The position numbers were made by a program, and so were the translations under genes. This document shows, piece after piece, positions 41,043 to 45,364 of a stretch of DNA of 64,000 nt (positions within the stretch are counted from its first letter, which is position 1; each line of letters starts with the position of its first letter). Source of the stretch: Motilibacter aurantiacus (GTDB lineage: Bacteria; Actinomycetota; Actinomycetes; Motilibacterales; Motilibacteraceae); NCBI RefSeq assembly GCF_011250645.1, contig NZ_JAANNO010000002.1, positions 155,081-219,080 of the forward strand. The letters run 5' to 3'. The notes under the pieces were generated by a model. That model did not search any database. It worked only from the letters and a program-made list of their open reading frames with translations, and was not told where the DNA came from.

Positions 41043-41639
41043 ATGAGCGACCACGGGCCCGCGGCAGGCGATGTCGTCCCGGAGCACGCCTCGCTCGTCC
41101 GCGCCTTCGCCAACACGCTCGACGTCGACGAGGGCACCGATGAGCTGGCCGACGTCGCGCGCCTGCGGGCGTGGCTCGTGTCGGCACGCCTGCTGGCACC
41201 GGACGCGGCGGCGGACGAGGCCGACCTCGCGCTCGCCCGGGACGTGCGCAGCGGGCTGCGCGCCGCCCTCGTCGGCCACGGCGAGGCCGCGCACGGGCCG
41301 GTCGACCCCGCGGACGCCGCACGCGCCGTCGCGCGGCTCGACGGCCTCGCCGCCCGACTACCGCTGCACGTCGCCTTCACGACGGGCTCGCCCCGGCTCG
41401 TGGCGGGCGGGGACGGCGTGCGCGCAGCGCTCGCACAGGTGCTCGTCGCGGCCGCGCGCAGCGGCGCGGACGGCTCGTGGCAGCGGCTGAAGATCTGCCC
41501 GGACGACAGCTGCTCATGGGCGTTCTACGACGAGTCGCGCAACCGCTCACGCGCCTGGTGCGGGACCGGCTGCGCGAACAAGAACAAGGTGCGGGCCTAC
41601 CGCTCCCGCCGGCGGGCGGCCGACGCGGCGGCGCGATGA
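41043..41639 (+). CDS. CGNR zinc-finger / ABATE-domain regulator
   Basis: A 198-aa protein. The N-terminal ABATE-like (stress-induced) domain (about 18-140) holds FANTLDVDEGTDELADVARLRAWL. The C-terminal CGNR zinc finger is RLKICPDDSCSWAFYDESRNRSRAWCGTGCANKNKVRAYR-like, with four Cys ligands (split here as CPDDSC and CGTGC). The family is thought to bind DNA. It overlaps azlC by four bases (ATGA), so it probably regulates, and is co-made with, the amino acid exporter. Confidence 0.87.
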   Translation: MSDHGPAAGDVVPEHASLVRAFANTLDVDEGTDELADVARLRAWLVSARLLAPDAAADEADLALARDVRSGLRAALVGHGEAAHGPVDPADAARAVARLDGLAARLPLHVAFTTGSPRLVAGGDGVRAALAQVLVAAARSGADGSWQRLKICPDDSCSWAFYDESRNRSRAWCGTGCANKNKVRAYRSRRRAADAAAR

Positions 41640-42325
41640 CGCTTCCTCCTGAGCGCCGCCGGGCCGTGCTGCGCACCTCGCTGGGCGTCGGCGTGGCCAC
41701 CGGCGCGTACGGGGTGTCGTTCGGCGCCCTCGCCACCGCGAGCGGGCTCGACGTGCTGCAGGCGTGCGCCCTGTCCCTGCTCGCCTTCAGCGGCGCCTCC
41801 CAGTTCGCCTTCGTCGGGGTCGTGGCCGGCGGCGGCGCGCTGCTGTCGGGGACGGCGACCTCGGTCCTGCTCGGCGCCCGCAACGGGTTCTACGGGCTGC
41901 GCATCGCCGAGATCCTGCGCGTGCGCGGCGTGCGCCGGCTGGCAGCGGCACAGCTGACGATCGACGAGTCCACCGCAGTGGCGGTCGCGCAGCCCGAAGA
42001 GCCCGCCGCCCGGCTCGGCTTCTGGTCCACCGGGCTCGCGATCTACGTGCTGTGGAACCTCGCCACCCTCGTCGGCGCGATCGGCGGCACGGCCATGGGC
42101 GACCCGGCGGAGTGGGGCCTCGACGCCGCCGCGCCGGCCGCGTTCCTCGCCCTCGTCGCGCCGCGGCTGCAGGGGCGGCGCACCGTCCTCGTCGCGGTGG
42201 TCGCCGCCCTGCTGGCGCTCGCCCTCGTGCCCGTCTCCCCTGCCGGGGTCCCGGTCATGGCCGGCGCGCTGCTGGCCGTCACCGGCGCCGTCCTCGTGCG
42301 CGCGTCCGCGCAGGTGCCCCGGTGA
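41636..42325 (+). CDS. azlC: AzlC-family branched-chain amino acid exporter, large subunit
   Basis: A 229-aa membrane protein. The ATG at 41636 overlaps the regulator stop; the longer open frame is a shadow. Family pattern: GVSFGALATASGLDVLQACALSLLAFSGASQFAFVG and LLGARNGFYGLRI, with about six membrane helices. It works with AzlD in export of branched-chain amino acids or analogues. The stop overlaps the azlD GTG. Confidence 0.9.
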   Translation: MTLPPERRRAVLRTSLGVGVATGAYGVSFGALATASGLDVLQACALSLLAFSGASQFAFVGVVAGGGALLSGTATSVLLGARNGFYGLRIAEILRVRGVRRLAAAQLTIDESTAVAVAQPEEPAARLGFWSTGLAIYVLWNLATLVGAIGGTAMGDPAEWGLDAAAPAAFLALVAPRLQGRRTVLVAVVAALLALALVPVSPAGVPVMAGALLAVTGAVLVRASAQVPR

Positions 42326-42627
42326 CCGTGTGGGCCGGCATCCTGCTCACCAGCGCCGGGGTCTACCTGCTCAAGCTCGCCGGCCTGCTGGTCCCGCCCA
42401 GGGCGCTCGAGCCGCCCCGCGTCCGCCTCGCGGCCACGCTGCTGCCGGTCGCCCTGCTCTCGGCGCTCGTCGCGGTGCAGACGCTGTCCACCGGGCGCGA
42501 GCTGGCCGTGGACGCCCGGCTGGCCGGCGTCGCGGCGGGCGGCGTCGCGCTGCTGCTGCGCGCGCCCTTCCTCGTGGTCGTCGCGGTCGCCGCGGGGACG
42601 GCCGCGCTGCTGCGCGCCGTCACCTGA
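42322..42627 (+). CDS. azlD: AzlD-family exporter, small subunit
   Basis: A 101-aa membrane protein with four hydrophobic segments (for example GILLTSAGVYLLKLAGLLV and LAATLLPVALLSALVAV). GTG at 42322 overlapping the azlC stop (GTGA). It is the usual small partner of AzlC. Operon: CGNR regulator-azlC-azlD. Confidence 0.9.
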   Translation: MTVWAGILLTSAGVYLLKLAGLLVPPRALEPPRVRLAATLLPVALLSALVAVQTLSTGRELAVDARLAGVAAGGVALLLRAPFLVVVAVAAGTAALLRAVT

Positions 42628-42724
42628 CCCGGCCACCGGCCGAAGTCGACATAACGGAAGTCATCCGCGCGCGCGGCGGGCCGCCCCTAGCGTGGACGGC
42701 CAGCCCGGCAGGAGGAGACGCGCG

Positions 42725-45364
42725 ATGGCGGCCGACGACGACGCGACGGCGCACGGCCCGGCGACGGGTGCGGGCTCTGCCCCGGAGGCGCTGCGCCGCG
42801 TCGCGCGTGCCGAGCCGGGCCGGGTCGCGGTCTGCGTGACGGGGAGCGACGGGCCCGAGCTGACGACGTACGCCGAGCTCGACCGCGCCGTCGACCGGCT
42901 CGCGCAGGCGCTGGCCGCCGAGCTCGGGCCGCCGGTGCACGGGGCGCACCGCGTCGCCGTGCGGCTGCACGGCCCGCTCGAGGTCGTCGTCGCGACCCTC
43001 GCCCTGGAGCGGGCCGCCCTCGCGGTCGTGCCCGTCGACCCGAGCGCGCCGATCGAGCGCGTCGAGGCGATCCTCGCCGACGTCGAGGCGGCCCTGCTGC
43101 TCAGCGACGTCCCGGGGGACGCCGACGAGGTGGGCCGGCGGGTCGAGCACCCCCTCGGGCTGGGCGTCGAGCCGGTGGCCGGGTTGCCGGCGGCCCAGCC
43201 CTCCCCCGACGCGCTGGCGGCGGTGATGTTCACCTCCGGCTCGACCGGCACCCCGAAGGGGATCGTCGTCCCGCACGCCCAGCGTCAGGCCTTCGCCCGC
43301 TGGGTCGACCGCTTCTGGGCGCTGCCGGACGGCGCCCGGGTCGGCACGCTCTCGGTCGGCACCGTGGGGTTCTACGAGGCGCTCGTGCGCGGCACCGTGA
43401 TGTGCGGCGGCACCCTGCACGCCTATCCGGTACGCCGCCTCGGCCTCGGCGCGCTGGCCCCCTGGCTGCTGGAGCACCGCATCCAAGCCCTGCCGCTCGT
43501 GCCGACCCTGCTGCGCGCGCTCGTGCCGGCGCTCCCGCCCGGCCTGCGGTTCCCCGACCTCACCACCGTCGTGCTGGGCGCCGAGGCCCCCACCTGGGAG
43601 GACGTCCGGCTGCTGCGCACCGTCCTGCCGCCCGGCGCCACGGTCTACAACCTCTACGGCACCACCGAGACCGGGTCGGTCGCCGGCCTCGCGCTGCCGG
43701 GCGACGCCCCGCTCGGCGAGGGCCGGCTGCCCGCGGGCCGGGCCATCGACGGCTGCCGCATCGAGATCACCGGCGAGGACGGCACCGTGCTGCCCGCGGG
43801 GGTGCGCGGCGAGGTCACGGTGGTGACGGCGTACGGCGGCACCGGATACTGGAACCGGCCCGAGCAGACCCGGGCGGTGTGGCGGGCACGCCCGGACGGC
43901 ACGGTCGGCTGCCGGACCGGTGACGCGGGCACGCTCGGCGCCGACGGCGTGCTGCAGTGCCACGGCCGCATGGACCACGTCGTCAAGATCGCCGGCAACC
44001 GGGTCGAGCTCGGCGAGGTCGAGTCCGCCCTGCAGGCGGCCGACGGCGTCGCCGGAGCCGCCGCGGTGGGCCGGCCCGATGCGGAGGGCGACGTCCGGCT
44101 GCACGCCTTCGTCACCGCCGCCGCGGACGCCGTCCTGCACCCGGCCGCGCTGCGCGGACGGCTGGCCCGCCGGCTGCCCGGCTACATGCTCCCGGACTCG
44201 ATCACCATCCTGGACGAGCTGCCCGGGCTGCCCGGGGGCAAGGTCGACCGCAGCGCGCTGCCCGAGCCGGCTCTCCGGCGCGAGCGACCGGCCGCCGCGG
44301 CCTCCTCGCAGCTGGAGGCCGCGCTCGTCGCGGTCTGGCAGGAGGTGCTCGGCCGCGAGGTCGGGGCGGACGACGACTTCTTCGACCTCGGCGGCGACTC
44401 GCTGCGCGCCGCCCGGGCCTTCGCGCTCATGAAGGCGCGGCTCGGCTACGACCGGCCGATCTCGCTGCTGCTGGACGCCCCGACGGTCGCGCTGCTCGCC
44501 GCCGCGCTGGAGGCGGGCGTCGACGGCTGGGAGCCGCTGGTCCCGGTGCGGGTGGCCGGCGAGAAGCCGCCGGTCTTCCTCGTCCACGGCGGCGGGGGCA
44601 ACGTGCTCTTCGCCCGCCGGCTGGCCCAGGGGCTGCCCGACGGCCACCCGGTCTACGCCTTCCAGGCGCCGACCCTCTCCGGCCGGGCCTCCGAGGAGCG
44701 CACGCTGGAGGAGCTGGCCGCGCGGTACGTCGCCGAGGCCCGGCGCTGTGCCCCGGACGGGCCGTACCTGCTGTTCGGCTACTCCCTCGGCGGCGTCATC
44801 GCCTTCGAGATGGCGCTGCAGCTGCAGGCAGCGGGCGCGCAGGTGGGCCTGCTCGCGATGGGCGACAGCGACCTGCCGGCCGTCGCGCCGGCCCCGTCGA
44901 TCCCGCTGGCCCGGCGCGCCGCCGACCGGCTCGGCGAGCTGCGCGGCCTCCCCCCGCAGCAGGCCCTGCGCCGCGCGGCCCGGCTGCCCGGCAACCAGGC
45001 CCGCAACCTCCCCGCTGCGCTACGCCTGCGCGGCCTGCGCCGCCAGTGGCGCGAGCAGCTCGCACAGGTGGCGCCGGGCGCGCCGGTCGACGTCGAGTTC
45101 CGGGTCGCGTGGAGCCTGCAGGAGAGCGGGAGGCTGCTGGCGGCGTACGCGCCGGCCCGGGCTTTCGACGGCTCGGTGGTCATGGTGAGCGCCAGCGAGT
45201 CCCGGCGCGACCATGCCGGTGAGTGGGCGCCGTACGTCACCGGGAAGGTGCACGTCGAGCAGGTGGACGGCCGGCACGAGAGCCTGCTGCAGGGCGAGCG
45301 GATCGACGCGGTCGCCGCGGCGCTCGCGGCAGCCCTCGGCCGGGTGGGGGCCCTGCGCAGCTGA
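42725..45364 (+). CDS. stand-alone A-T-TE non-ribosomal peptide synthetase-like enzyme
   Basis: An 879-aa single-module enzyme. The ATG at 42725 follows GGAGGAG. The adenylation domain (about 20-500) has FTSGSTGTPKG (A3), NLYGTTETG (A5), GCRTGDAG (A7), KIAGNRVELGEVE (A8) and GKVDRSALPEP (A10, catalytic Lys). The carrier domain has the phosphopantetheine Ser near 558 in DLGGDSLRAA. The thioesterase (about 600-879) has GYSLGG near 686 and a C-terminal His in VDGRHESLLQ. It has no condensation domain. At the position of the Asp that normally holds the amino-acid amino group (the FDxS core) this enzyme reads VGTVGFYEA without an Asp, so the substrate is probably not an alpha-amino acid. No MbtH, phosphopantetheinyl transferase or tailoring gene is adjacent. 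Confidence 0.88.
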   Translation: MAADDDATAHGPATGAGSAPEALRRVARAEPGRVAVCVTGSDGPELTTYAELDRAVDRLAQALAAELGPPVHGAHRVAVRLHGPLEVVVATLALERAALAVVPVDPSAPIERVEAILADVEAALLLSDVPGDADEVGRRVEHPLGLGVEPVAGLPAAQPSPDALAAVMFTSGSTGTPKGIVVPHAQRQAFARWVDRFWALPDGARVGTLSVGTVGFYEALVRGTVMCGGTLHAYPVRRLGLGALAPWLLEHRIQALPLVPTLLRALVPALPPGLRFPDLTTVVLGAEAPTWEDVRLLRTVLPPGATVYNLYGTTETGSVAGLALPGDAPLGEGRLPAGRAIDGCRIEITGEDGTVLPAGVRGEVTVVTAYGGTGYWNRPEQTRAVWRARPDGTVGCRTGDAGTLGADGVLQCHGRMDHVVKIAGNRVELGEVESALQAADGVAGAAAVGRPDAEGDVRLHAFVTAAADAVLHPAALRGRLARRLPGYMLPDSITILDELPGLPGGKVDRSALPEPALRRERPAAAASSQLEAALVAVWQEVLGREVGADDDFFDLGGDSLRAARAFALMKARLGYDRPISLLLDAPTVALLAAALEAGVDGWEPLVPVRVAGEKPPVFLVHGGGGNVLFARRLAQGLPDGHPVYAFQAPTLSGRASEERTLEELAARYVAEARRCAPDGPYLLFGYSLGGVIAFEMALQLQAAGAQVGLLAMGDSDLPAVAPAPSIPLARRAADRLGELRGLPPQQALRRAARLPGNQARNLPAALRLRGLRRQWREQLAQVAPGAPVDVEFRVAWSLQESGRLLAAYAPARAFDGSVVMVSASESRRDHAGEWAPYVTGKVHVEQVDGRHESLLQGERIDAVAAALAAALGRVGALRS

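Follow-up and report, generated by a model that had tools for sequence, protein, structure and literature searches.

A freestanding A-T-TE synthetase of Motilibacter aurantiacus without the amino-group-binding Asp, and its clade within the Actinomycetes

Described systems and domain layout

The fungal non-reducing NRPS-like enzymes AcyN, TdiA, and MicA have the domain order adenylation–carrier–thioesterase (A-T-TE), lack a condensation (C) domain, and use non-amino substrates; in the accessible part of the source, the thioesterase (TE) of such enzymes condenses two aromatic alpha-keto acids (PMC9047271). The alpha-keto-acid adenylation (A) domain of the depsipeptide synthetase StsA has Ile in place of the amino-group-binding Asp (Asp235 of PheA) and Met in place of the A5 proline that is conserved in alpha-amino-acid domains; the exchange M415P abolishes its activity. 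The same source, as far as accessible, lists Ala (engineered TycA) and Gly (EnSynA1) at position 235 of alpha-hydroxy-acid domains and gives QQVxFMAEGL as the A5 motif of aryl-acid domains (PMC11253843). StsA works alongside a ketoreductase (KR) domain, and a C domain follows downstream (accessible part of PMC11355689); one keto-acid domain, HcaB, has been proposed to keep the Asp (excerpt of PMC10949194).

A protein of 879 amino acids with the same A-T-TE order is encoded at positions 42725–45364 (plus strand) of a 64,000-nt stretch of the genome of Motilibacter aurantiacus (the window). Its gene was delimited by the open frame (ATG at 42725, stop codon at 45362–45364), a Pfam scan, and a strong ribosome-binding site ahead of the ATG (AGGAGG, 42710–42715). 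We propose, with a probability of about 0.6, that it is a freestanding synthetase whose substrate would be a carboxylic acid lacking an alpha-amino group. An alpha-keto or alpha-hydroxy acid bearing a hydrophobic side chain is the most likely candidate. The enzyme would adenylate the acid and load it onto its own carrier domain; its own TE would then release the acid as a simple product or join it to a second unit. The sequences themselves show the domain order, the intact catalytic residues, the absence of the Asp throughout the clade, the missing A5 proline, the placement in the clade, and purifying selection; the substrate class is our inference, based on the chemistry of the residues and on an FMN-dependent alpha-hydroxyacid dehydrogenase beside some clade members.

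Pfam models matched at residues 24–376 (AMP-binding), 431–500 (AMP-binding_C), 533–595 (PP-binding), and 616–868 (Thioesterase), and the scan found no Condensation domain in the 879-aa protein, in agreement with the first-pass annotation, which had described complete A, carrier, and TE motifs without a C domain. The A domain (residues about 24–515; 42794–44269), outlined by the two AMP-binding models, an AlphaFold model, and a fold search, contains the A3 motif FTSGSTGTPKG in its translation (residues 169–179; 43229–43261), the A5 motif NLYGTTE (residues 309–315; 43649–43669), and Lys506 (44240–44242), which the family alignment identifies as the counterpart of PheA Lys517. Pfam and the family alignment also define the carrier domain (44321–44509), with the phosphopantetheine-binding Ser559 (44399–44401) in the motif GGDS559L, and the TE domain (44570–45328), with Ser687 in GYS687LGG, Asp714, and His851. 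All these motifs are intact, and K178, K506, S559, S687, D714, and H851 are invariant in the 33 rows of the family alignment. Two phosphopantetheinyl transferase (PPTase) family matches are present in the host genome.

A PDB search with the predicted model clearly recovered the A-domain fold, with tied matches that did not discriminate the substrate; StsA was absent among the matches listed, which carries no weight as evidence. Unlike StsA, the window protein has no KR domain in the Pfam scan, and its TE directly follows the carrier. Its C-terminal thioesterase and the absence of a reductase domain from the Pfam matches distinguish it from carboxylate reductases (A-T-R). The terminal C-A-T-TE module of EntF resembles it in the A-T-TE part and in the type of TE but additionally carries a C domain, has a pocket of the canonical amino-acid kind, and falls outside its clade. 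The host genome also encodes a C-A-T-TE protein of 1392 amino acids (L040; G000:C4:66507-70397), whose A domain belongs to the large clade of EntF and whose pocket we take to read like a serine code.

Binding pocket and A5 motif

The first-pass annotation had claimed that the amino-group-binding Asp was lost and that VGTVGFYEA had replaced the FDxS core, and the alignment of the 33 family members bears this out: the core reads TVGFYEA in the window protein, and Gly215 (43367–43369) is the counterpart of PheA Asp235. The assignment agrees with an equal spacing on both flanks relative to the relatives and with the AlphaFold model (mean pLDDT 79, pTM 0.54), in which Gly215 is the first residue of a predicted helix (215–226); from PheA, a helix is expected to begin at the counterpart of residue 235. 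Pairwise BLAST against canonical NRPSs was unstable at this position, with register shifts of often up to 5 residues, and was dropped in favor of the family alignment. An alternative register places Ser at the Asp235 position; neither register restores an Asp, the outcome that the annotation had named as contrary to its claim. Because the translation contains no Asp between residues 203 and 250, no register can do so, which makes the claim independent of register.

The loss extends to the whole family, which has Ala (20), Ile (11), or Gly (2) at position 235 but Asp in none of the 33 members. The A5 proline is likewise missing from all 33, replaced by Thr313 in the window protein and by Ala (18), Ser (13), or Thr (2) across the family. 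Among 247 other A domains from the loci studied, 208 have the proline, 26 have another residue, and 13 have an unrecognised motif; most of the exceptions without proline read GITE and keep the Asp. The ten-letter pocket code of the window protein is GFAPVGLSVK (GFAPVGMTVK in its ortholog), as opposed to the VAEFSGG-type code of fungal A-T-TE enzymes, a set compared here by description only. With a non-acidic residue at position 235 (Gly215 in the window protein; Ala, Ile, or Gly in 33/33) and a non-proline residue in A5 (Thr313; Ala, Ser, or Thr in 33/33), the family resembles StsA as described in the accessible part of PMC11253843.

Loss of the Asp by itself is no proof of a non-amino substrate, because McyG activates Phe with Val at position 235 (PMC11253843, in the part accessible). 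The window protein might similarly activate a hydrophobic alpha-amino acid and act in trans with another NRPS of the host, whose genome has C domains in three places away from the synthetase; the best phmmer matches of the window protein are ordinary NRPS A domains. This reading is quite improbable, however, since two hallmarks of amino-acid domains have been lost together in 33/33 members and the window protein has a TE of its own and no C domain. Moreover, its best NCBIfam model, TIGR01733 (amino-acid adenylation), scores 249.1 bits, which is below the cut-off of 317.4.

The clade and its partner genes

When 296 genomes of the class were searched with a profile (A2) built from the window protein and five relatives, which score high by construction, 33 places reached a score of at least 936 bits, spread over 23 genomes, and the next place scored 632; because three candidates per genome were scored, the counts per genome are lower bounds. 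Three of the 23 genomes belong to the family of the window's organism (f1) and 20 to a second family (f18), which we take to be probably Frankiaceae. Among 396 genomes drawn from the phylum, a match at E 1e-220 was present only in the window's own genome. For a maximum-likelihood tree, 78 A domains were used, among them 21 of the family's 33 rows and randomly drawn other A domains, with no characterised keto-acid A-T-TE enzyme in the set. A branch supported at 100/99 sets these 21 rows apart; the canonical NRPS A domains sampled, EntF, EntE (on a long branch), and acyl-CoA synthetases are placed outside. The window protein groups apart from these sampled canonical domains; clustering with alpha-amino-acid A domains is what the first-pass annotation would have taken as contrary evidence. 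The clade has no sharp boundary: two further loci (L153 and L157; 632 and 553 bits) also fall inside.

Within the clade, the window protein and its ortholog form a deep sister group to all remaining members, on a long branch (1.27). The members from f18 share the domain order and the lack of both the Asp and the A5 proline with the window protein (31–36% identity) but have different pocket codes (AAT..WSLK-like and IS..), and six of them have an FMN dehydrogenase partner. The deep, long-branched position of the window protein and its own pocket code suggest that its substrate may differ from that of the remaining clade. A literature search, which left most subscription journals outside its coverage, found no paper whose title describes this clade and no report on the products of its enzymes. 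Of the plasmid matches to the window protein, the eight examined were ordinary multi-module NRPSs where annotated (two were unannotated), and this line was dropped. An A-T-TE-like gene that is an orphan among housekeeping genes occurs in two genomes of another family (f33; L210 and L211 in G272 and G081), next to genes resembling those of PRPP synthetase and a DinG-type helicase, which were named by eye.

The gene of an FMN-dependent alpha-hydroxyacid dehydrogenase is the next gene downstream, on the same strand and at a distance of 67–173 bp, in 6 of the 33 loci. These are exactly the loci with the code ISNVxVST[AT]K (6/6; two genera of f18). In each of four genomes checked, the adjacent enzyme is the best PF01070 match among two to three full-length matches, and the three of the six that were scanned all score below the NCBI cut-offs for MftD and LldD. 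The dehydrogenase was not seen in the 27 loci outside the ISN group, within surrounding stretches that were in some cases short and had genes called by open frames and codon bias. Its presence beside clade members points to alpha-keto or alpha-hydroxy acids as substrates. The genome of the window's organism contains no strong homolog (best PF01070 match 48.4 bits), so that such a partner seems to be unavailable to the window protein.

The interpretation in the first-pass annotation is supported in part; that two acids are joined, or that the single gene forms an entire pathway, is conjecture. Its idea of a non-amino substrate gains plausibility from the separation from canonical NRPS A domains, the low TIGR01733 score, the clade-wide loss of both the Asp and the A5 proline, and the sub-clade with the dehydrogenase. 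The label of an orphan holds for the window locus, where, as that annotation had stated, no biosynthetic tailoring gene was seen between about 36 and 52 kb of the window, but not for the clade as a whole. Other genes occur near individual family members: a luciferase-like monooxygenase gene near four members of the Ile235 type (L183, L184, L185, and L186; PF00296 in the one scanned), and genes of a methyltransferase, an SDR, an acyl-CoA synthetase, and AzlC at two loci of a single genus (L175 and L176), the largest candidate pathway encountered in the clade.

The synthetase might instead activate another non-amino acid, such as a short or branched fatty acid or an aryl acid, which the TE would hydrolyse or pass on to an alcohol, an amine, or a protein in a modification or detoxification step. 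Gly, Ala, or Ile at position 235 and the altered A5 motif would suit any acid without an alpha-amino group, the window protein has weak matches to NCBIfam models of acyl-CoA ligases, and its locus is devoid of tailoring genes. Loss of the A5 proline is also found among acyl-CoA ligases, where YGTTE-like motifs are common. We nevertheless regard this alternative as rather unlikely, because the tree separates the clade from EntE and from the acyl-CoA synthetases included, a hydroxyacid dehydrogenase adjoins some clade members, and keto acids are the substrates of the A-T-TE precedents from fungi (PMC9047271, accessible part). Aryl acids in particular appear to be disfavoured, since NLYGTTE in the window protein differs from the motif QQVxFMAEGL reported for aryl-acid domains (DhbE and EntE; accessible part of PMC11253843). 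Among the hydroxy, keto, aryl, and fatty acids considered earlier, alpha-keto and alpha-hydroxy acids fit best with the loss of the Asp and the A5 proline and with the dehydrogenase.

Locus history and proposed function

The synthetase gene is preceded on the plus strand by the genes of an AzlC-type transporter (in the 3' part of the open frame 41171–42325) and its AzlD-type partner (42310–42627, start not fixed). The intergenic leader (42628–42724, plus strand), which includes a possible –10 element (TAGCGT, 42688–42693) and the ribosome-binding site, shares conserved blocks with the sister species, e.g., CCGCCCCTAGCGTGGAC. This conservation suggests a promoter dedicated to the synthetase rather than mere read-through from AzlCD; a generic promoter scan found none.

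The second genome of the genus (G001) is collinear with the window throughout the stretch, and its synthetase is 75% identical. Between the two orthologs, dN/dS is 0.374 over 875 codons, and the gene is kept under purifying selection in the genus. The value exceeds those of the nine neighbours computed (0.07–0.30), as might be expected of an NRPS remnant that is decaying or no longer productive, but it is well under 1, and the complete frame, the retained catalytic residues, and the synteny shared by the two genomes of the genus make such decay very improbable.

The comparison of neighbours in relatives, proposed in the first-pass annotation, places the synthetase at this site in G001, whereas three further genomes from the family lack it there. 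One of them (G002) has AzlC, AzlD, a TPR gene, and dapB at the matching site, with no synthetase between AzlD and the TPR gene, and carries another clade member elsewhere in its genome (L041); in the other two (G003 and G004), both the synthetase and AzlCD are missing from the site. The sites without the synthetase suggest that the window's genus probably acquired it at this position; repeats at the locus are only weak and give no indication of a mobile element. The presence of AzlCD without the synthetase in G002 weakens the case for AzlCD as a pathway partner, and AzlC probably lies outside the pathway; the AzlC gene close to the synthetase at L175 and L176, two loci of one genus, is at most a hint. 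Elsewhere in the window, an Actino-pnp RNA (RF01688; 50449–50513, minus strand) lies upstream of pnp and overlaps the 5' end of its longest frame, so that the true start of pnp is probably located further downstream.

By analogy with the fungal A-T-TE enzymes, whose TEs join two alpha-keto acids, dimerisation by the TE of the window protein is possible, although this is a guess that we consider less likely than not. More speculatively still, the family may represent an undescribed actinobacterial A-T-TE clade whose small symmetric products would derive from alpha-hydroxy or alpha-keto acids, some members having an FMN-dependent alpha-hydroxyacid oxidase as their sole partner. The window's genus might then have gained a stand-alone member for a hydrophobic keto acid of primary metabolism, with one gene yielding one signal- or pigment-like product.

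Predictors of specificity that rely on the amino-acid code would probably fail to place these A domains. If the proposed function is correct, the A-T-TE synthetase and the FMN dehydrogenase would offer a two-gene system for testing the substrate class and the reaction of the TE, and a kind of enzyme that is best described in fungi would gain a bacterial clade whose pocket codes include several new ones.
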